Below are positions 20,400 to 31,573 of a stretch of 64,000 nt of DNA, one piece after another. The stretch's first letter is position 1; each line of letters starts with the position of its first letter. A model generated the notes under the pieces. It had not been told where the DNA came from, searched no databases, and was given only the letters and a program-made list of their open reading frames with translations. Location: contig CP092081.1 in NCBI GenBank assembly GCA_022226935.1, positions 854,734 to 918,733 of the forward strand. The letters run 5' to 3'. Source of the DNA: Nitrospira sp. (GTDB lineage: Bacteria > Nitrospirota > Nitrospiria > Nitrospirales > Nitrospiraceae). The position numbers were made by a program, and so were the translations under genes.

Positions 20400-22124
20400 G
20401 TGAACTCGCTCCTGCGCGTTCTGTCTTATCTCAAGCCGTTCCGGATGCTGGCGGTGGTGACCTTCGTCTGCGCGGGGCTCGCCACGGCGCTGGAATTGGT
20501 TCCGCCCTATCTCGTCAAAATCGTCATCGATGATGTGATCCAAGCCAAGCGGCCCGAGATGCTCATCTGGGTATTGGGCGCCCTGTTGGGGTCTTATGTT
20601 CTGCGGAACCTGATGAGTTCGATGCGGGTGCGATTCAACAATTTGCTGGAGCAGAAGGCCGTGCATACGCTGCGCATGCAGGTCTTCGGCGCGTTGCAAC
20701 GTTTATCGCTGAGTTATTTTGAAAATCGATCGACCGGCGAGATCATGACGCGGGTGACCAGCGATACCGAACATGTCGAACGCATCTTTGTCGATGGGCT
20801 CGAAGGGTTGCTGACCGCCTCCCTCACGTTGATCGGCATCACGGTCATGATGTTTGTGCTGAACTGGAAATTGGCGCTGCTGTCACTGCTGCCTATTCCG
20901 ATCCTGATCGTCTGTGCCGCCTGGTTCACGAAGCGCGTGCACAAGTACTATGCGGAGATCCGCAAAAGCGTGGCCGACCTCAATGCGTACCTGCAGGATG
21001 CTCTGTCGGGCATCAAGGAAACCATCGGCTTCAATCAGCATGACTATGAGCGGAAGCGCTTTGAAACCTTGAGCCAGACCTACAGCCAGAACAGTTTGCG
21101 GGCCATGTTTCTGTGGTCCTGGTATTGGCCGGGCATGGTATTTGTGGGCAGTACCGGCACAGTCCTCATTCTCTGGTATGGAGCGGAAGAAGTGATGGCT
21201 GGGAATTTAACGGTCGGCCAGTTGGTCATGTTCCTCTCGTATCTCGGGCTGTTTTATACGCCGATCAACGAAATCCATTCGCTGAACCATATGCTGCAAC
21301 ATGCTCTGGCGGCCAGCGAACGCGTGTTCGAAATCCTCGATACGAAAGCGGAGGTCGAAGATCGGCCGGGCGCGGTCCGGCCTGTCGACCGATTGAAGGG
21401 GGCGGTGGAATATCGGCAAGTGGTCTTCGGTTACCGGGCAGAAGGTACGGTCTTATCCGATGTGAATCTGACCGTACGGCCTGGTGAGCGGATTGCACTG
21501 GTGGGACCGAGCGGTGCTGGAAAAACGTCCTTGCTGAAGCTGCTGATGCGGTTTTACGATGTCCGTAGCGGCGCGGTGTTAGTGGATGGCTATGATGTCC
21601 GGGACCTGCCGGTGGCGTTTTTGAGGGGGCAGATCGGCCTGGTGCAGCAGGAGCCCTTTCTCTTTAACGGAACGGTGCGGCAGAATATTGTCTACAGCGA
21701 CCTGTCGGCCAGCCACGAACGCGTCGAAGCGGCAGCCCGCGCGGCGCGCGCGCACGACTTTATCATCCGGCTGCCGGATGGGTATGATAGTTGGATCGGT
21801 GAGCGGGGCGTCAAATTGTCGGTCGGACAGAAGCAGCGTGTCTCCATCGCCCGTGTGCTGTTGAAGGATCCGCCGATCGTGATCTTCGATGAGGCGACTT
21901 CCAATATCGACACGGAGACCGAGGTCAAAATCCGTGAAGCCCTGAACGATCTGACGAAGGGACGTACGACCTTCATCATCGCGCATCGCCTCGCGACGCT
22001 ACACGATGTGGACCGCATCATCGTCGTAGAACATGGGACCATTGTCGAAGAAGGCAATCACGACGCCCTCATGAAACGCGGCGGGGTCTATGCGGGGCTC
22101 TATGAAGCGCAGTTCAAGATTTAG
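20400..22124 (+). CDS. ABC exporter, MsbA/lipid-A or multidrug type (fused TM and ATPase)
   Basis: A 574-residue half-transporter. Residues 1-310 contain six membrane segments of the exporter fold. The ATPase follows, with Walker A GPSGAGKT (369-376), a signature LSVGQKQR (473-480; Val replaces the first Gly of the usual LSGGQ), Walker B IVIFDEATSNID and H-loop IIAHRL. It functions as a homodimer or heterodimer. General sequence (KLSYFENRSTGEIMTRV-like segment, FYTPINEIHSLNHMLQ) is closest to MsbA/Sav1866-type exporters; the substrate is not readable. It starts at GTG. One base separates its stop from a palindromic repeat. Confidence 0.88.
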   Translation: MNSLLRVLSYLKPFRMLAVVTFVCAGLATALELVPPYLVKIVIDDVIQAKRPEMLIWVLGALLGSYVLRNLMSSMRVRFNNLLEQKAVHTLRMQVFGALQRLSLSYFENRSTGEIMTRVTSDTEHVERIFVDGLEGLLTASLTLIGITVMMFVLNWKLALLSLLPIPILIVCAAWFTKRVHKYYAEIRKSVADLNAYLQDALSGIKETIGFNQHDYERKRFETLSQTYSQNSLRAMFLWSWYWPGMVFVGSTGTVLILWYGAEEVMAGNLTVGQLVMFLSYLGLFYTPINEIHSLNHMLQHALAASERVFEILDTKAEVEDRPGAVRPVDRLKGAVEYRQVVFGYRAEGTVLSDVNLTVRPGERIALVGPSGAGKTSLLKLLMRFYDVRSGAVLVDGYDVRDLPVAFLRGQIGLVQQEPFLFNGTVRQNIVYSDLSASHERVEAAARAARAHDFIIRLPDGYDSWIGERGVKLSVGQKQRVSIARVLLKDPPIVIFDEATSNIDTETEVKIREALNDLTKGRTTFIIAHRLATLHDVDRIIVVEHGTIVEEGNHDALMKRGGVYAGLYEAQFKI

Positions 22125-22125
22125 G

Positions 22126-22247
22126 AGGATGCTGAAAATGTCCGCCAGCGGCGTTCTCGCATCGCAAAATCGCTCAACGTACCGCAAGGGTATGCCTCGC
22201 TCTTTTGCATCGCTGCGGCCTTGCCGGACAGCCATTTTGAGCATCCT
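22126..22247. repeat. ~122-bp imperfect palindrome, copy A
   Basis: It begins AGGATGCTGAAAATG and ends CATTTTGAGCATCCT. The centre has a second inverted repeat, CGTACC with GGTATG around GCAAG, which keeps pairing through a G-U wobble. It lies one base after the exporter stop codon. Related copies B, C and D, and truncated E, are in this window. Confidence 0.9.
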
Positions 22248-23331: not shown

Positions 23332-23844
23332 TTAACTGATGTGGATGTCGGCGGGCCGGACTTGGCCGCCGGTGATCCAGTAGGTGCGAATATCGGCTGC
23401 GGGGGCATGCATGAGTGAAACCAGCAGATAGGCCGGAACAGGCAAGTTGATCCGTTGCCAGATTTCCTCGTAGTCCGTCGCGATTTTGATATCGGTGTGA
23501 GACGGCCGCGCCGGATCCTTCGGATGAGAATGATAGACGACTTGCAGGTCCAGACCGTTCTTGCGAATGTCTTTCTTCGCCGCGGAAAAGTCGCCCATAT
23601 CCATCACAAAGGCGATTTCCGCCCGTTCTTCAGGTGAGAGACGTTCCAGATGGGCGACCTTGTCGTCATCGAACGTAGAGAGTTTTTCCGCCCCTTCCAC
23701 CGCCACGATGTTCGTGATGCGGTAGAGGTGCGTGACGGTCTTGTTCTTTCCGGCCAACAGGCCGCAACATTCGAACGGCGCCAATTCGCGCGCATGGGCG
23801 ACGATTTGATCCAGGATGTGCTGCGGGATCGACAGATCAGGCAT
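23332..23844 (-). CDS. JAMM/MPN (Mov34-PAD1) zinc metallopeptidase, Mec-like
   Basis: The 170-residue protein has the complete JAMM motif: Glu25 (FECCGLL), then H105-S-H107, seven residues, S115, two residues, D118. Prokaryotic members such as Mec of Mycobacterium and QbsD of Pseudomonas hydrolyse bonds at the C-terminus of ThiS-like sulfur carriers, releasing cysteine or trimming extra residues. Here it is the last gene of a minus-strand run with two carriers and two E1 enzymes, one base after the moeB-like gene. Function in carrier processing is inferred from that context. Confidence 0.9.
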   Translation of the reverse strand: MPDLSIPQHILDQIVAHARELAPFECCGLLAGKNKTVTHLYRITNIVAVEGAEKLSTFDDDKVAHLERLSPEERAEIAFVMDMGDFSAAKKDIRKNGLDLQVVYHSHPKDPARPSHTDIKIATDYEEIWQRINLPVPAYLLVSLMHAPAADIRTYWITGGQVRPADIHIS

Positions 23845-23845
23845 G

Positions 23846-24649
23846 TCAGATGGTGCAGGCCACGCTGTAATCTCCGCCGAGATCCTTGATTGTCGGGGTG
23901 GCGCTGCACAGAGGGCAACGCGGATCTTTCGGGCGGGAGACCTTGCGGAATTTCATTTCCAATGCATCGTAGATCACCAGTTTATCTGCGATCGTTTCGC
24001 CGATGCCGAGAATTTCCTTGATGGCTTCCGATGCCTGGAGAATGCCCATGGTGCCGGCCAGCACGCCCAACACTCCCGCTTCCTGGCAGTTCGGAACAAG
24101 GCCAGCAGGAGGTGGCTCGGGGTAGAGGCAGCGGTAGCAGGGGAATCCGGCATGCGGCTTGATGCTCGTGAGCTGGCCTTCGAATCGGAACATGCTGGCC
24201 GAGATCAGCGTCTTCTTGGCGAAGAAGCAGGCATCGTTGACCAGAAAACGCGTGGTGAAATTATCGGATCCGTCCAGCACGATGTCGTAGTCAGATACCA
24301 GCCCGAGAATATTTTCGGTATCGACGTTCAGTTGATAGGTCTTGATCGTAATGTCGGGATTGATGGCCGACAGCATCCGTCGTCCTGATTCCACCTTGGG
24401 TACGCCGACGGTCGCAGTGGTATGCAGAATCTGCCGCTGGAGGTTGGACAAGTCCACGACATCGCCATCGACCAGACCGATCGTGCCGATGCCAGCTGCC
24501 GCCAAGTAGAGGGCCGCGGGCGATCCAAGGCCGCCGGCGCCGATCAACAGCACCTTGGCTTTTGCCAGTTTGACCTGCCCCTTGCCGCCCACTTCGTTGA
24601 GGATGATGTGCCGGCTGTAGCGCTGAATTTGCTGGTCGGTAAATTCCAT
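23846..24649 (-). CDS. moeB: MoeB/ThiF-family E1-like adenylyltransferase (copy 1)
   Basis: Adenylates the C-terminal Gly of a ubiquitin-fold sulfur carrier. The chosen start MEFTDQQ matches its paralogue and gives 267 residues. ATP site GAGGLG (37-42), the arginine-bearing NLQRQ (69-73), zinc Cys pairs C171/C174 and C245/C248, and the candidate catalytic Cys188 in NCQEAGVLG are all present. There is no rhodanese domain. An 86-bp gap with an inverted repeat separates it from the NIL gene upstream. The partner is probably the GG-ending carrier two genes upstream. Confidence 0.88.
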   Translation of the reverse strand: MEFTDQQIQRYSRHIILNEVGGKGQVKLAKAKVLLIGAGGLGSPAALYLAAAGIGTIGLVDGDVVDLSNLQRQILHTTATVGVPKVESGRRMLSAINPDITIKTYQLNVDTENILGLVSDYDIVLDGSDNFTTRFLVNDACFFAKKTLISASMFRFEGQLTSIKPHAGFPCYRCLYPEPPPAGLVPNCQEAGVLGVLAGTMGILQASEAIKEILGIGETIADKLVIYDALEMKFRKVSRPKDPRCPLCSATPTIKDLGGDYSVACTI

Positions 24650-24671
24650 TCGACTGGTCTCTCGTCGTTCG

Positions 24672-24702
24672 TCAGAGGAGAACCGGTTGAAGGCTTCCTC
24701 TG
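24672..24702. repeat. Inverted repeat between NIL and moeB-like genes
   Basis: TCAGAGGA and TCCTCTGA face each other over a 15-nt loop; flanking GTCGTTCGT and AACGAACG may extend it. It could form an intra-operon hairpin affecting mRNA processing or stability. Confidence 0.45.
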
Positions 24703-24735
24703 AGGCACGCGTCACAACGAACGCGTCACGCCTGG

Positions 24736-24975
24736 TTATTCCACCACATTCAATTCAATCGGGTCGACGACGCAACCTTTGGTCCGAATGCCGTCGATGG
24801 CCCGTTCGATCTCTTCCGTTTCGCCGGTGAGTTCGAGGTCCATCCATCCTGTGGTCTCGCGCACATCGGCGCGGCGCACATTGGTGACCACTCTGAATTC
24901 ATGGCCGATCTGGTAGATGATCGGTTCTTTGATCTTATTTTCAGGAAACCGAATGTGAAATCGTAGGCTGGTCAT
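24736..24975 (-). CDS. NIL-domain protein, 79 aa
   Basis: A stand-alone ferredoxin-like-fold NIL domain: SLRFHIRFPENKIKEPIIYQ at the start, then VVTNVRRADVRETTGWMDLELTG. NIL domains occur on methionine importers (MetN) and in archaeal/anaerobe homocysteine-forming systems. Here it follows the GG-ending carrier by two bases, so it likely takes part in the same sulfur transfer. No Cys is present, so it would have a binding rather than redox role. Confidence 0.8.
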   Translation of the reverse strand: MTSLRFHIRFPENKIKEPIIYQIGHEFRVVTNVRRADVRETTGWMDLELTGETEEIERAIDGIRTKGCVVDPIELNVVE

Positions 24976-24977
24976 GG

Positions 24978-25250
24978 TTATCCTCCGGCGATCGCGGGAA
25001 CGATCGATACTTCATCGCCATCTTTCAGCGAGGTCTCTTTCCCGTTCAGAAAGCGGATGTCTTCCTCATTGACGTAGATGTTGACGAAGCGCCGCAAGTC
25101 GCCCTTTTCATCGCAGAGCCGGTTTTTCAGGCCCGGATAGGTGGCGTCGAGCGATCCGATCATGTCCACAATGTTGGCTGCCGCGGATTCAACCTCACCC
25201 TGGCCCTTCGTGAGCGGACGCAAGGGCGTTGGAATACGAACCTTAATCAT
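24978..25250 (-). CDS. MoaD/ThiS-family sulfur carrier ending in Gly-Gly
   Basis: A 90-residue beta-grasp protein ending IVPAIAGG. The bare diglycine is the form that an E1 adenylates and converts to a thiocarboxylate. [14 protein letters not shown] and [10 protein letters not shown] are typical of MoaD/CysO-type carriers. Its ATG overlaps the stop of the threonine-synthase-like gene by 4 bp. It most resembles CysO-like carriers found next to PLP enzymes rather than molybdopterin MoaD; no moa or mog genes are nearby. Confidence 0.88.
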
Positions 25251-26497
25251 GATTCACCACCACTGTTCTTTCCCATTTTGAATGTTTTTTGGAAGTTCAC
25301 CAGGCTCGGCTGGATCCGGAACGGACGCCCCACGGCATCCACGACCGCTTCCTGGGTCTTGAGTCCATTACCCGTAATGTACGCGACCGTGACGTCGTTC
25401 TTCTTGATCAAACCCTGCTTGACGAGTTTGCACAACACGCCGATCGTCACACCGCCCGCCGTCTCGGCAAAAATACCTTCGGTCTGCGCCAGCAGCTTGA
25501 TGCCTTCTACGACTTCTTCGTCCGTCACCGCGTCCATCGCGCCTTTGCTTTCGGCGGTAGCTTTCAAGGCATAGTAGCCGTCCGCCGGGTTGCCGATGGC
25601 GAGGGATTTGGCAATAGTCTTCGGCTTCACCGGCTTGAAGAAGTCCCGGCCGGCTTTGAAGGCCGTGGCGATCGGGGAGCACCCTTCGGCCTGCGCGCCG
25701 TTGATCTTAGTGCGCACCTCATCGACTAGTCCCAGGGCTTTCATTTCGTGCAGGCCCTTCCAGATCTTGGTCAGCAGGGAGCCCGAGGCCATAGGAATCA
25801 CGGCTTGGTCTGGCGTGCGCCAGCCGAGTTGCTCGACCGTTTCGAAGGCCAACGTTTTCGACCCTTCGGCATAGTAGGGACGAATGTTGATGTTCACGAA
25901 CGCCCAGCCGTGTTCACCGGCGATCTCGCTGCAGAGCCGGTTCACATCGTCGTAGTTGCCTTCGACTTCGACCACGTTCGGCTTATAGATCAGGTTGCCG
26001 AGGACCTTGGCTGCTTCCAGATCGGCAGGGATGAAGACATAACACTTCATGCCCGCCGCGGCGGCATGGGCTGCGACGGAGTTGGCCAGATTGCCGGTGG
26101 AGGCGCAGGCCACCGTTTCGAAGCCGAGTTCACGCGCGCGCGTGAGGGCAACCGACACGACCCGATCTTTGAACGACAAGGTCGGATGATTGACCGTATC
26201 GTTCTTGATATAGAGCTCGTCGATACCCAGATGTGCGCCAAGATTTTTTGCCCGCACCAAGGGTGTCAGTCCCGCATGGGGTCCGATGATCGAGGTGCTT
26301 TCGACCGGTAACAGGTCGATGTAGCGCCACATGCTGTTCGGACCTTGCTCGATTTTCTTGCGCGAGATGGTGCTCTTGATCTCGTCGTAGTTGTATTTCA
26401 CTTCCAGCGGGCCGAAGCACATCTCACAGACATGGATGGCTTTGGGTGGATATTCCTTCCCACATTCCCGGCACACGAGCGCTTTCATTTTCGACAT
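25247..26497 (-). CDS. thrC: Threonine synthase (fold type II PLP enzyme)
   Basis: By family it converts O-phosphohomoserine to threonine. The N-terminal zinc-ribbon Cys (C9, C12, C24, C27), PLP Lys110 in HPTLSFKDR, and [15 protein letters not shown] support threonine synthase. The start is set by GAAGGTG upstream and gives 416 aa. It overlaps the sulfur-carrier gene, and lies 13 bp after moeB copy 2. The tight coupling to carrier genes leaves open that it, or a variant of it, accepts a thiocarboxylate and forms homocysteine. That is speculation; threonine synthesis is the default. Confidence 0.88.
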
Positions 26498-26510
26498 GGA
26501 GACACCTTCG

Positions 26511-27338
26511 CTACAAGTTACGTTGACCCGGAAGCGCACATGTCGGCCCACCGACGTCGCCGTCTTCAATCAGCTCCGTAATCGTGGGCCGCTCCCCGCA
26601 CAGGGGACAATCGGGGTTCCGCTTGATGCGGATTTCTCTAAACTGGGTGCGGCGCGCATCAAAATCCAACAGCCGATCGGTCAGCGGGCGGCCGATGCCC
26701 AGGATCAGCTTGAGTGCTTCAGTGGCTTGAATGGTACCGATAATCCCGGCCAACACGCCGATGACGCCTGCTTCCTGGCAGGAGGCAACCAGTCCTTCGG
26801 GCGGCGGCTTTTTGAAGACGCACCGATAACAGGCCGACTTTTTTGGAATGATGGTGGTCACGCGCCCGTCGAACCGGAGAATGCCGCCGTGCACCAGTGG
26901 CTTGCCGGCAAAATAACAGGCATCGTTGATCAGGAACTTCGTCGGAAAATTATCGACGCCGTCGATCACCACGTCGTAGCCGCTCATGATCTTGAGAGCG
27001 TTGCCTGCCGTGAGCCGCTCTTCGTACATCACCACATTCACGTCGGGATTCAGTGCCTGAATCTTCTCTTTGCCGGAGACGACTTTGGGGCGCCCCACGT
27101 CCGGTGTTTGGTGAATGACCTGACGTTGAAGATTGCTGAGATCTACCACATCGCTGTCGATCAGGCCGATCGTGCCGATGCCGGCGGCAGCCAGATAGAG
27201 GGCTGCCGGCGAACCAAGACCACCAGCGCCGACGATGAGGACCTTCCCCTGGATAATCTTCTTTTGACCCTTGCCGCCGACTTCGGGCAGGAGGATGTGG
27301 CGGCTGTAGCGGTTGATTTGTGTTTCTGTAAATTCCAT
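26511..27338 (-). CDS. moeB: MoeB/ThiF-family E1-like adenylyltransferase (copy 2)
   Basis: Paralogue of copy 1 with the same layout: GAGGLG (37-42), NLQRQ (69-73), C170/C173 and C244/C247 zinc pairs, and Cys187 in SCQEAGVIG. The two differ at many surface positions, as expected if each serves its own carrier. The C-terminus is longer (about 25 extra residues). It is upstream of thrC, separated from cysK by palindrome copy B. Confidence 0.88.
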   Translation of the reverse strand: MEFTETQINRYSRHILLPEVGGKGQKKIIQGKVLIVGAGGLGSPAALYLAAAGIGTIGLIDSDVVDLSNLQRQVIHQTPDVGRPKVVSGKEKIQALNPDVNVVMYEERLTAGNALKIMSGYDVVIDGVDNFPTKFLINDACYFAGKPLVHGGILRFDGRVTTIIPKKSACYRCVFKKPPPEGLVASCQEAGVIGVLAGIIGTIQATEALKLILGIGRPLTDRLLDFDARRTQFREIRIKRNPDCPLCGERPTITELIEDGDVGGPTCALPGQRNL

Positions 27339-27345
27339 CTTGTAT

Positions 27346-27467
27346 GGGATGCTGAAAATGGCCTTCGGCTGCGTTCTCGGCTCGACGAAATCCTCAACGT
27401 ACCCAGAGGGTACGCCTCCGGTTTCATCTCACCTGCGGCCTTGCCGAGAGACCATTTTGAGCATCCC
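27346..27467. repeat. ~122-bp imperfect palindrome, copy B
   Basis: Starts GGGATGCTGAAAATG and ends CATTTTGAGCATCCC. The outermost A-T pair of the other copies is G-C here, a pair-preserving change. The inner stem CGTACCC/GGGTACG closes loop AGA. It lies between the cysK stop and the moeB copy 2 start. Confidence 0.9.
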
Positions 27468-27489
27468 CCTCAATCATTTAATCCAGGAA

Positions 27490-28419
27490 TCAAATATTGA
27501 AGTACTTTTCGATGCTGATATACCGCTCGCCGGTGTCGCAGAGAATCGTCACGACGTTCTTGCCGGGGCCTAATTCCTCGGCGACCTTCTGGGCGGCGAA
27601 GACGTTGGCGCCGGCAGAAATACCGACCAGCAGCCCTTCTTTCTTCGCGAGCAATTTAGCCGTTTGATAGGCTTCATCGTCGGTCACGGTAATCACGCGG
27701 TCGAGCAGGGTACGGTTCAACACTTTGGGCACGAACCCCGCGCCGATGCCTTGAATCTTATGCGGTCCCGGATCTCCACCGGACAGCACGGGTGAGCCCG
27801 CCGGTTCCACCGCCACGATTTTCGCCGCCGGATTTCGCTCCCTGATCACTTCTCCGCAGCCGGTAATGGTTCCGCCGGTTCCGACGGCCGCCACGAACGC
27901 ATCGACCCGACCATCCAGCGCCTCCACAATTTCCGGACCGGTGGTTTTGCGGTGCATGGCCGGATTCGCCGGATTGGAGAATTGGTCGGGCATGTAGTAC
28001 GACGGATTCTGCGCGACGATGCTCTCCGCTTCTTTTATCGACCCTTTCATCCCTTCCCAGGCCGCCGTAAGAACCAGCTGCGCGCCATAGGACGACAATA
28101 GGCTCGCGCGTTCCATGCTCATACTTTCGGGCATGACCAGAATCAGTTTATACCCTCGCACCGCCGCCACTAGTGCCAGACCGATGCCGGTATTGCCGCT
28201 CGTCGGTTCGACAATGGTCCCGCCCGGTTTCAGTTTGCCCTGCCGCTCCGCCTCGTTGATCATGTTGAGGCAAATGCGATCCTTGATGCTTCCGCCTGGG
28301 TTGAACGATTCGACTTTTGCGTAGATCGTCGCCGACCCTGGCTTGGTCAACCGATTGAGCCGCACCAAAGGAGTGCCGCCGATCAACTCGGTGATATCTG
28401 CGTGGGCCTTCGCGGTCAC
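27490..28419 (-). CDS. cysK: Cysteine synthase (O-acetylserine sulfhydrylase family)
   Basis: PLP enzyme forming cysteine. PLP Lys46 lies in NPGGSIKDR, the substrate loop is TSGNTG (73-78), and GTGGT (180-184) holds the phosphate. Length (309 aa) is typical. It uses GTG, overlapping the stop of a ThiS-like carrier gene by 4 bp. Translational coupling to a carrier suggests it accepts protein thiocarboxylate instead of, or besides, free sulfide, as CysM does with CysO in Mycobacterium. CysK versus CysM subtype is not certain. Confidence 0.9.
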   Translation of the reverse strand: MTAKAHADITELIGGTPLVRLNRLTKPGSATIYAKVESFNPGGSIKDRICLNMINEAERQGKLKPGGTIVEPTSGNTGIGLALVAAVRGYKLILVMPESMSMERASLLSSYGAQLVLTAAWEGMKGSIKEAESIVAQNPSYYMPDQFSNPANPAMHRKTTGPEIVEALDGRVDAFVAAVGTGGTITGCGEVIRERNPAAKIVAVEPAGSPVLSGGDPGPHKIQGIGAGFVPKVLNRTLLDRVITVTDDEAYQTAKLLAKKEGLLVGISAGANVFAAQKVAEELGPGKNVVTILCDTGERYISIEKYFNI

Positions 28420-28616
28420 CGGCCACCACCCATGTAAAAGAGAAATTCCACATGATCGCCGTCTTTCAGCTGCGTGGTCTCAAGGTGGGTCCGTTCCAGC
28501 ATGGTGTCATTGACTTCAACCGCGACCATTTGCGGCTCGATGCTTTTGGCTTTCAACAGGTCCAGAACCGTGCCGCCTGCGATCTCTTCCGCCTTGCCAT
28601 TGATCGTCACCTGCAT
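28416..28616 (-). CDS. ThiS-like sulfur carrier with a GGGR C-terminus
   Basis: A 66-residue beta-grasp protein (MQVTINGKAEEIAGGTVLDLL, then MVAVEVNDTMLERTHLETTQL; ends FLFYMGGGR). Active ThiS ends in GG, but this one has an extra Arg after three Gly, so it would need trimming before adenylation. The island's JAMM protease is the obvious candidate. No thiG, thiH or other thiamine genes are nearby. It is the first gene of the minus-strand cluster. Confidence 0.85.
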   Translation of the reverse strand: MQVTINGKAEEIAGGTVLDLLKAKSIEPQMVAVEVNDTMLERTHLETTQLKDGDHVEFLFYMGGGR

Positions 28617-28645
28617 ATCTGCTCCTGAGAAGGTAAGAGTCCGAC

Positions 28646-28766
28646 AGGATGCTGAAAATGTCCGTCAGCGGCGTTTTCGCATCTCTCAGGTTCTCAACGT
28701 ACCGCAAGGGTACGCCTCGTCCCTTCGTTCGCTGCGGCCTTGCTGGACGGCCATTTTGAGCATCCT
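28646..28766. repeat. ~121-bp imperfect palindrome, copy C
   Basis: AGGATGCTGAAAATG to CATTTTGAGCATCCT with inner CGTACC/GGTACG. Flanking GAC and GTC extend the outer stem by three more pairs. It lies just upstream of the ThiS-like carrier gene, in its 5' region, unlike the other copies. Confidence 0.9.
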
Positions 28767-30192: not shown

Positions 30193-31461
30193 ATGGGACA
30201 GGCCCGGATAGAGACGGATGTGGCGATTGTCGGCGCGGGGGGCGGCGGCGCTGTGCTGGCCTTGATGCTCGCGCAGCAAGGAGTGCGTTCTCTAGTGTTG
30301 GAACGGGCTGCCGGTCCGCCGCAAGGTCTGCGGGGGGAAATTCTGCAGCCGAACGGCCAGCGGGTGCTTGATCGTCTGGGGTTGCTCGACAAGTTGCCGG
30401 CGCATGCCGTGCGATCGGTGCATCGATTCAATTTCTGTCGATCGGGCGGCGAACGGCTTTGCACGGTCGACTACAGTGACCTTCCCGCTCCGTACAATCG
30501 CGCTGTGGTGACGCTGCCCAATGTCGCCCACCATGCCATCCTCGATGCGTTGGAGAAGCAGAATCCCGGCGGACTCTGGTACGATGCCACCTTTACCGGA
30601 CTTCGCTTCGACGGCAGCCGTGTCGTCGGCTTGCAGGCTACCCGTCATGGTGAGCCGGTCGAGGTGTCTTCGCGTCTGGTGGTCGGCGCGGACGGCGCGT
30701 TCTCCAAGGTTCGCGAGTCGCTCGGCATCACGGCGGACTTCTATCGCTATCCGGAGAGTTATCTGATCGCCATTCTCAAGGCTCCGCCGGGGTTTGATGA
30801 AGCGCGGTATCTGGTGGGCACGGGTGAGATTCTCGGATTATTTCCCGCCGCCGGCCAACAGGTCTATGCGTTTTATATGATTAAAGCCGGATCGTATGAC
30901 ACCGTGAAGGCTCAAGGACTTGAGACGTTGCGACGGGCTTGGGTCCGAATCGATTCCGGCATGGAATCCATCGTCTCAGGTTTGGTCGATTGGAATCAGA
31001 CTGGCTACATGCCGACCGGGCGCGTTCGCACCGATCGGTGGGTGGCGGATGGCGCCTTGCTTATCGGGGATGCGGCCCATGCCATGAACCCGCATGCGTC
31101 TCAGGGGCGGATGCAGGCGATGGTGGACGCGGTTGTCGTAGCAGACCTCATTCCCGGTTGGTTGAAGACAAACGATTTTTCTGCTGAAGCCTTGCGCGTA
31201 TTCGAGGTGGCGCGGCGACCACAGGTGATGATGTTGCAGCGGTTGGCCGACGAGCAATGCCGATTCTGGAATACGGGCAATCCGCTGCTGGCGTTTTTGC
31301 GGGACCGTGTGTTCCGGACGCTCGACCGCAATGCCAGACTGCGCTATCGTGTGCTCACGACGACTGCGGGACTACGAAGCCAACCGCCCTTTTCATTATT
31401 GGATCGGGTCATGGCTGCTGGATTCTTGCCCGATCCGCGCGCAGATCTAACAGGATGCTGA
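30193..31461 (+). CDS. FAD-dependent monooxygenase (UbiH/PHBH-like)
   Basis: Flavin hydroxylase fold of 422 residues: Rossmann GxGxxG as VGAGGGGAVLA (about 13-23), the DG motif GADGAFSKVRE, and GDAAHAMNPHASQG (from residue 292), which binds FAD. Substrate unknown; aromatic hydroxylation is the family norm. The last codons (ADLTGC) and the TGA stop lie inside palindrome copy D, so the natural C-terminus may have been replaced when the element inserted. Confidence 0.85.
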   Translation: MGQARIETDVAIVGAGGGGAVLALMLAQQGVRSLVLERAAGPPQGLRGEILQPNGQRVLDRLGLLDKLPAHAVRSVHRFNFCRSGGERLCTVDYSDLPAPYNRAVVTLPNVAHHAILDALEKQNPGGLWYDATFTGLRFDGSRVVGLQATRHGEPVEVSSRLVVGADGAFSKVRESLGITADFYRYPESYLIAILKAPPGFDEARYLVGTGEILGLFPAAGQQVYAFYMIKAGSYDTVKAQGLETLRRAWVRIDSGMESIVSGLVDWNQTGYMPTGRVRTDRWVADGALLIGDAAHAMNPHASQGRMQAMVDAVVVADLIPGWLKTNDFSAEALRVFEVARRPQVMMLQRLADEQCRFWNTGNPLLAFLRDRVFRTLDRNARLRYRVLTTTAGLRSQPPFSLLDRVMAAGFLPDPRADLTGC

Positions 31462-31573
31462 AAATGTCCGCCAGCTGCGTTCTCGCCTCGTTCAGACCCT
31501 CAACGTACCCCGAGGGTACGCCTCGGCCCTTTACTGGGCTGCGGCCTTGCTGGACGAACATTTTGAGCATCCT
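31452..31573. repeat. ~122-bp imperfect palindrome, copy D
   Basis: AGGATGCTGAAAATG to CATTTTGAGCATCCT, with a perfect 7-bp inner stem CGTACCC/GGGTACG and loop CGA. Flanking C and G extend the outer stem. It provides the stop codon of the monooxygenase gene. Confidence 0.9.

Follow-up and report, generated by a model that had tools for sequence, protein, structure and literature searches.

A Nitrospira operon probably devoted to cysteine and homocysteine synthesis through protein thiocarboxylates

In Wolinella succinogenes, Krishnamoorthy and Begley are said to have described in 2011 how the thiocarboxylate of a carrier protein, HcyS, is used for homocysteine, with a JAMM protease trimming the carrier, and the partner enzyme in that system is reportedly a PF01053-family sulfhydrylase acting on O-acetylhomoserine. 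Another enzyme, MetM, was reportedly found by Hasebe and collaborators in 2024 (doi 10.1128/aem.01247-24) to convert O-phosphohomoserine and the thiocarboxylate of the carrier MetO into homocysteine. Here we compare with these systems an eight-gene operon from Nitrospira sp. (contig CP092081.1, positions 854,734 to 918,733; these 64,000 nucleotides are called the window below), which encodes two small sulfur carriers, two activating enzymes of the E1 type (E1a and E1b), a cysteine synthase, a pyridoxal phosphate (PLP) enzyme usually annotated as threonine synthase, a NIL-domain protein and a JAMM metalloprotease (Table 1). For cysteine, the CysO-CysM-Mec+ system brings a carrier, a cysteine synthase, an E1 and a JAMM protease to work jointly (PMC3227635), and a NIL domain takes part in homocysteine synthesis through the DUF39-NIL/ferredoxin pathway (PMC5764234).

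Judging from gene content and context, the eight genes probably form an operon for sulfur amino-acid synthesis, of both cysteine and homocysteine, by way of protein thiocarboxylates. In the homocysteine half, E1b would adenylate the C-terminal glycine of MetO, a persulfide donor would convert the adenylated carrier into MetO-COSH, and with this thiocarboxylate the MetM-like PLP enzyme would displace the phosphate of O-phosphohomoserine to give homocysteine. E1a would likewise activate the CysO-like carrier, the sulfur then passing to CysK acting on O-acetylserine, which would yield cysteine. The JAMM protease would trim the residues behind the diglycine of precursor carriers, freeing the glycine for activation, and may also release the amino acid from its carrier adduct, as Mec+ does, while the NIL protein would bind or regulate the carrier/E1 step. 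We infer every one of these reactions, as well as the sulfur donor and the part given to NIL. The original prediction for this locus had proposed a protein-thiocarboxylate pathway to amino acids, which is right in kind and well supported by gene context; its methionine half belongs to an already known type, and the cysteine half is less certain. Its description of an eight-gene minus-strand run also stands: all eight reading frames are open at their place, Pfam and NCBIfam return the families it named (JAB/JAMM, two ThiF/MoeB, NIL, two ThiS-family carriers, a threonine-synthase-like enzyme and cysK), and the 4-bp overlaps of carrier with cysK and of 'thrC' with carrier are both exact.

The window 'thrC' is distinct from the cell's threonine synthase. 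The window genome (G000, a single contig of 4.23 Mb with completeness given as 99.4%) has six PF00291 genes, and a canonical thrC of 352 amino acids lies elsewhere in it, in an aminotransferase-hom-thrC-phosphomutase-like-lysC run; the window gene is thereby ruled out as the only threonine synthase. On that run the family models find homoserine dehydrogenase, threonine synthase, apgM (passed) and aspartate kinase, the aminotransferase is of class I/II, and the phosphomutase-like gene reaches 337 bits with the 'proposed homoserine kinase' model, under its cut-off of 446. In a tree, 14 MetM-like and 12 ThrC rows separate at 100/100. It was rebuilt without the haloarchaeal, Chlorohelix and L221 rows, which have long branches and an unreliable placement; the same division had appeared in a previous 35-row tree, with 19 and 13 rows plus three long outlying ones. 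Between six MetM and five ThrC rows there are fixed active-site differences, which include the N-terminal CxxC...CxxC segment and fall also at the positions equivalent to T88, S155 and R160 of the Thermus threonine synthase, presumably the binders of the substrate phosphate. Current models label the MetM-like enzyme threonine synthase, so annotation of these genomes would show a gap in methionine synthesis.

In Streptomyces albulus, outside the phylum, metM has an S-adenosylmethionine (SAM) riboswitch upstream and MetM is a homocysteine synthase (PMC12172450, citing Hasebe et al. 2024) acting on O-phosphohomoserine (PMC12172450). The thrC and carrier half of our locus, once thought uncharacterised, matches MetM/MetO, published in 2024 (as cited in PMC12172450). 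As a stand-in for Streptomyces MetM we used Nonomuraea gerenzanensis, since the best 80 loci kept from a scan of named genomes were all from Nitrospirota or from metagenome-assembled genomes with close relatives, of which one is titled Nitrosospira and one Nitrospinota. Its homologue (locus L174), found by tblastn in a plasmid collection, is 50.9% identical to the window MetM-like gene and shares with it the clade apart from ThrC. A carrier of 91 amino acids, ending AVAGG, begins 24 bp past the metM-like stop, and a SAM riboswitch (RF00162, L174:5903-6044, 68.7 bits for a gathering score of 44.4) lies about 14 bp before the likely ATG. Riboswitch, gene and carrier are thus placed as described for S. 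albulus (PMC12172450). The record that holds this locus (NZ_LT559118.1, 11.85 Mb) is labelled plasmid and is chromosome-like in size. None of the seven Nitrospirota metM loci scanned (L063, L068, L074, L099, L150, L172 and L173) has a SAM riboswitch. A Microcystis MetM homologue, whose adjoining carrier resembles S. albulus MetO, is described as having none either (PMC12172450), so the riboswitch is not defining for MetM/MetO.

The comparison of gene order across Nitrospirota that the original prediction had proposed was carried out, and the order carrier-cysK-E1-'thrC'-carrier-NIL-E1-JAMM is kept across Nitrospirales. From 131 MetM loci nine duplicates were dropped; among the 122 distinct ones, the full eight-gene string is readable in 74, and in 77 metM and metO overlap by 4 bp. 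Such overlaps, recurring across distinct MetM loci, are not chance. A carrier follows metM at all 116 loci with room to see it, and NIL stands beside MetM/MetO at 114 of 115; where there was room, an E1 lies downstream of MetO (78/78), JAMM lies in the run (70/71) and cysK upstream of metM (78/78), these last three counts being almost wholly from Nitrospirales, as the deeper loci had only 1.5-kb flanks. The same run is found in 20 Nitrospirales loci, with exceptions: the first carrier is uncalled in L074-L076, of which L076 begins inside cysK, and NIL is hidden within a longer reading frame in L064 and L069. NIL is fused in frame to the MetO carrier in L069 and L176 (MetO-GG-NIL), the L069 contig being present a second time as L172; in L064 the fusion partner of NIL is E1b.

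No further homocysteine route was found in the window genome (MetA, MetE and MetH were not searched for). It has no full-length PF01053 enzyme (MetB/C/Y/Z) at E<=1e-60, partial matches reaching up to 39 bits and true members scoring 440-469 bits in four of 41 genomes, and it has no DUF39 enzyme. MetX stood above its cut-off in none of the 41 genomes (best 25 bits), a strict cut-off which 14 control genomes failed too. The MetM-like gene itself exceeds 700 bits in 37 of the 41 relatives and survives in G009 only as a 26-residue fragment. A sample of 395 Nitrospirota genomes gave the MetM-like gene (E<=1e-100) in 343, PF01053 in 103 and DUF39 in 7; MetM is the sole one of the three routes in 262 genomes. 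The MetM-like gene co-occurs in 81 of the 103 PF01053 genomes and in none of the seven DUF39 genomes (hand count), which have no PF01053 either. An alternative route is present in 29 of 52 MetM-less and 81 of 343 MetM-bearing genomes (Fisher p 8e-6, indicative only, the genomes being related). An HcyS-type route is ruled out for the window genome by the missing full-length PF01053 enzyme, and the kinship with Wolinella HcyS suggested earlier is not the closest one. The DUF39 route, absent here, is confined in the phylum sample to MetM-less genomes. In two genomes (G158:C17:41625-44126 and G165:C42:12151-14703), a ThrC-like and a PF01053 match are adjacent in open frames of equal length (852 and 856 amino acids, respectively), possibly as a single fusion protein; G165 has no MetM-like gene.

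These results bear on the proposal that the window 'thrC' is a second threonine synthase, the carriers and E1s serving some unrelated sulfur transfer. The gene does pass the threonine synthase model TIGR00260, and in vitro a homologue of MetM from Microcystis forms threonine (PMC12172450). We nevertheless consider a second threonine synthase improbable, given the canonical thrC, the separate clade with its changed residues, the carrier that invariably follows metM and the searches for PF01053 and DUF39, which found no other homocysteine enzyme.

Among 36 chosen genomes, 30 carry a MetM-like gene, followed in all 30 by a MetO-like carrier, once with TusA between (L225); the canonical thrC comes after NIL in 19 of these 30 deep-lineage loci. 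At L220 the order is aminotransferase, hom, TusA, E1, JAMM, metM, metO, NIL, thrC and phosphomutase-like gene, with an aspartate-kinase-like gene past a gap. Such an order suits MetM and ThrC both drawing on O-phosphohomoserine, with TusA as sulfur donor; operons with a rhodanese-free E1 that always include a SirA/TusA protein have been described (Iyer et al. 2006, PMC1779556). The genes for this sulfurtransferase, a candidate donor, lie inside the metM run at L220:5721-5966 and L225:7590-7871.

The resemblance of the cysteine half to CysO-CysM-Mec+ is less certain. An earlier reading of the locus as a relative of that system holds for the joint presence of carrier, synthase and JAMM, and fails for the enzyme, which is of the CysK/OASS (O-acetylserine sulfhydrylase) type and not the O-phosphoserine type CysM: it passes TIGR01139 cysK, its 296.8 bits with TIGR01138 cysM remain under the cut-off of 394.2, and the best 60 structures listed for it are all OASS-like cysteine synthases or relatives of these. 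The CysO-like carrier is ThiS-like, with 2k5p as nearest structure (aligned end MGGG-K), and it is MetO whose nearest structure is 3dwg_C, which we take to be the CysO of a CysM-CysO complex. A second carrier-cysK-E1 set (L019, G000:C1:2739000-2754000) lies beside sulfate-transport-like genes; its neighbours include a shell protein that passes the family 2A encapsulin model, a cysteine desulfurase cargo protein whose 795 bits fall just short of the cut-off of 800, and a serine acetyltransferase-like gene that passes the EpsC model and not the cysE model.

We infer that CysK takes its sulfur from the carrier and not from free sulfide. The pairing of carrier and cysK, with its 4-bp overlap, recurs in the window, in the second set and in most Nitrospirales loci read; an Aliarcobacter plasmid has cysteine synthase, M67 protease and carrier together, and carrier-E1-JAB-cysteine synthase operons are described in several phyla (Iyer et al. 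2006, PMC1779556). All this speaks against the alternative that only the MetM/MetO half relies on a carrier thiocarboxylate, CysK using free sulfide and the small carrier serving another acceptor. That alternative draws on the cysK model and the OASS-type structures, on the ThiS-like character of the cysK-adjacent carrier and on the serine acetyltransferase-like gene; we find it rather unlikely. On the Aliarcobacter plasmid (A. cibarius pACIB, L212), annotation places an encapsulin 2A and a desulfurase with the three genes just named, and two transposases stand among them.

Three E1 genes lie above the ThiF cut-off in the genome, a fourth match of 20 bits falling under it, and there are six carriers, so at least one E1 serves several of them. 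E1a shares 81% identity with the E1 of the second cysteine set and 57% with E1b; on this pattern we provisionally pair E1a with the cysteine carrier and E1b with MetO, and one or more of the E1s would have to activate MoaD, ThiS and the TtuB-like carrier as well. Neither has a rhodanese match in Pfam or NCBIfam. No thiamine or molybdopterin genes had been seen near the operon, and indeed moaD (with moaC and moaE) and thiS (with thiG and thiE) are elsewhere in the genome, ThiG, ThiE and MoaC being recognised by Pfam and MoaE by models below cut-off. The window carriers are ruled out as MoaD or ThiS, since those are other genes beside moaC/moaE and thiG. A Cas7 gene (Pfam) and CRISPR-like repeats seen by eye adjoin the moa genes (L017:1-5100).

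One could also see in the cluster a general set of E1s and carriers for molybdopterin, thiamine or tRNA thiolation, placed beside PLP enzymes by accident. The moa, thi and TtuA-like stretches that were read contain none of the three E1s, which together with the count of carriers means that an E1 is shared, and mycobacterial MoeZR serves both MoaD and CysO (PMC3227635). E1 sharing is, however, also compatible with the thiocarboxylate amino-acid reading, moaD, thiS and a TtuB-like carrier are separate genes by their own partners, and the window carriers adjoin PLP enzymes throughout; an accidental neighbourhood has in our judgement only a very slight chance of being the explanation.

Five of the six carriers in the window genome extend past the diglycine: MoaD (by NS), ThiS (AE), the TtuB-like carrier (A), these three at loci L002, L003 and L006, and both CysO-like carriers (R). 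In E. coli, by comparison, neither MoaD nor ThiS has anything behind the GG. All 121 uncut MetO sequences retain GG, 46 stopping there and 75 carrying tails of 1 to 89 residues, of which 51 kinds occur; among 83 uncut CysO-like carriers, 82 have another residue after the glycines and one a further glycine. We extended this to a survey of 21 genomes, 20 of them with carriers, in which 78 PF02597 places were found, 76 read and 74 kept (two weak places inside long frames were left out, and L282 and L290, having no diglycine, were dropped as false). With classes taken from neighbouring genes, except for three ThiS and one TtuB-like carrier assigned from their ends, tails are present in 11 of 12 MoaD (two being MoaD-MoaE fusions, in G045 and G268, the latter with both domains confirmed by Pfam), 14 of 20 ThiS, 6 of 9 TtuB-like, 12 of 12 CysO-like, 9 of 15 MetO beside MetM, 3 of 3 MetO-like away from MetM and 1 of 3 other carriers. 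ThiS ends exactly at GGG in G086, G119, G144, G241, G043 and G053. The first four of these genomes have tailed MetO or MetO-like carriers despite their exact ThiS ends, and the last two, which are DUF39 genomes, have three carriers, all ending exactly.

Tails that vary while the GG before them stays the same fit with proteolytic removal, and the JAMM protein is our candidate for trimming the carriers. Its motif E...HSH...S..D is kept in 15 of 15 aligned relatives, and in the window genome, the only one in which JAMM was sought genome-wide, PF14464 otherwise matches only RadC; given this coverage, we do not claim that tails go together with the presence of JAMM. Iyer et al. 2006 proposed that JAB could free fused ThiS/MoaD, and they saw thiamine and molybdenum cofactor operons to be without JAB (PMC1779556). 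It is conceivable, although we would not yet call it likely, that most Nitrospirota sulfur carriers, including MoaD, ThiS and TtuB-like ones, are tailed precursors all matured by the JAMM of the methionine operon. In a manner resembling the processing of ubiquitin precursors, a single protease would then gate the sulfur of cysteine, methionine, molybdopterin, thiamine and tRNA, and O-phosphohomoserine would be contested between the homocysteine and threonine pathways. That the operon instead modifies proteins in the way of ubiquitin, JAMM being the deconjugase, appears highly improbable: the matches of JAMM to a desampylase model and of MetO to a SAMP1 model, which would invite it, both stay under the curated cut-offs (55 of 130 bits and 55.8 of 60 bits), no E2 or E3 family match occurs among the eight genes, and the partners are biosynthetic.

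Several observations weigh against the view that the operon makes both amino acids from carrier thiocarboxylates. On the methionine side, the Microcystis homologue is mainly a threonine synthase in vitro and an incomplete MetM in cells (PMC12172450), and the window has no SAM riboswitch at Rfam gathering scores. No TusA or rhodanese gene stands in the window's run. The window MetO has no tail and would not need JAMM for its maturation, and CysK is of the OASS type and may do without a carrier. In the phylum, 81 of the 343 MetM-bearing genomes have a PF01053 enzyme as well, and all three routes are missing from 23 of the 395 genomes; the relatives G011, G016 and G033, nearly complete although their assemblies are fragmented, lack both the MetM-like gene and any full-length PF01053 enzyme.

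The matches listed from the open-licence literature included no published account of the cluster in Nitrospira and none of general MoaD/ThiS tails (the term ThiS also matches 'this', which weakens that part of the search). New, in our view, are the joining of cysteine and homocysteine modules, the links to NIL and threonine, and the precursor-like carriers. The operon may provide a sequence-based answer to how homocysteine is made without the textbook enzymes in Nitrospira and in most sampled Nitrospirota. It would extend the route described in 2024 to Nitrospirota and connect it with threonine synthesis through a single branch point, and the tails suggest that a ubiquitin-style processing of precursors is routine in a bacterial sulfur economy.

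Concerning the layout of the window genes, 'thrC' probably begins at the ATG at 26497 and not at the TTG at 26569, and with this start the apparent overlap with E1a disappears. For E1b, the length of its relatives points to a probable internal ATG. An interspersed repeat has four copies in and around the operon (22124-22205, 27344-27425, 28644-28725 and 31450-31531), 82 nt in register and 70-85% alike, one lying between cysK and E1a and another just upstream of the first carrier.

Table 1. Genes of the operon and the repeat copy within it, in window coordinates, with the supporting models
Feature	Position	Strand	Evidence
CysO-like carrier (small ThiS-family), 66 amino acids, end YMGGG-R	28416..28616	-	PF02597 and TIGR01683 passed
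Cysteine synthase, CysK/OASS type, 309 amino acids, GTG start	27490..28419	-	TIGR01139 cysK, 458 bits (cut-off 351)
Interspersed-repeat copy within the 151-bp cysK/E1a gap	27337..27467	+	Repeat families D1 and D2
E1a, MoeB/ThiF-type activating enzyme, 275 amino acids	26511..27338	-	PF00899, 289 bits
MetM-like PLP enzyme (annotated type threonine synthase), probable 416 amino acids, reading frame open to 26569	25247..26497	-	TIGR00260
MetO-like carrier, 90 amino acids, end exactly PAIAGG	24978..25250	-	PF02597; nearest structure 3dwg_C
Stand-alone NIL-domain protein, 79 amino acids	24736..24975	-	PF09383, 51 bits
E1b, MoeB/ThiF-type activating enzyme, reading frame of 289 amino acids, probable start near 24649	23846..24715	-	PF00899, 268 bits
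JAMM metalloprotease, 170 amino acids, intact E...HSH...S..D motif	23332..23844	-	PF14464, 69 bits

Set beside the described systems, the locus would share with the Wolinella HcyS-HcyD-HcyF system the carrier thiocarboxylate for homocysteine and the JAMM trimming, and differs in the partner, which is there reportedly a PF01053 sulfhydrylase. With the DUF39-NIL pathway it has the NIL domain in common, but the window genome is without DUF39 and its NIL protein is stand-alone. In operons 4b-4e of Iyer et al. 2006, either cysteine synthase or TusA/SirA accompanies the carrier, E1 and JAB genes, and the proposal that JAB frees fused ThiS/MoaD is close to ours; threonine synthase and NIL have 0 occurrences in that text, whose passages on these operons describe no carrier tails (PMC1779556). 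As in the M. tuberculosis CysO-CysM-Mec+ system, carrier and cysteine synthase lie side by side with an E1 and a JAMM protease, although here the enzyme is an OASS-type CysK in place of CysM, the carrier is ThiS-like and the E1 has no rhodanese match. Finally, from S. albulus MetM/MetO the locus departs in having no SAM riboswitch and in its additional parts, namely NIL, a dedicated E1, JAMM and the cysteine module, and it agrees with it in the core of the arrangement, a ThrC-fold enzyme with a GG-ended carrier directly downstream.

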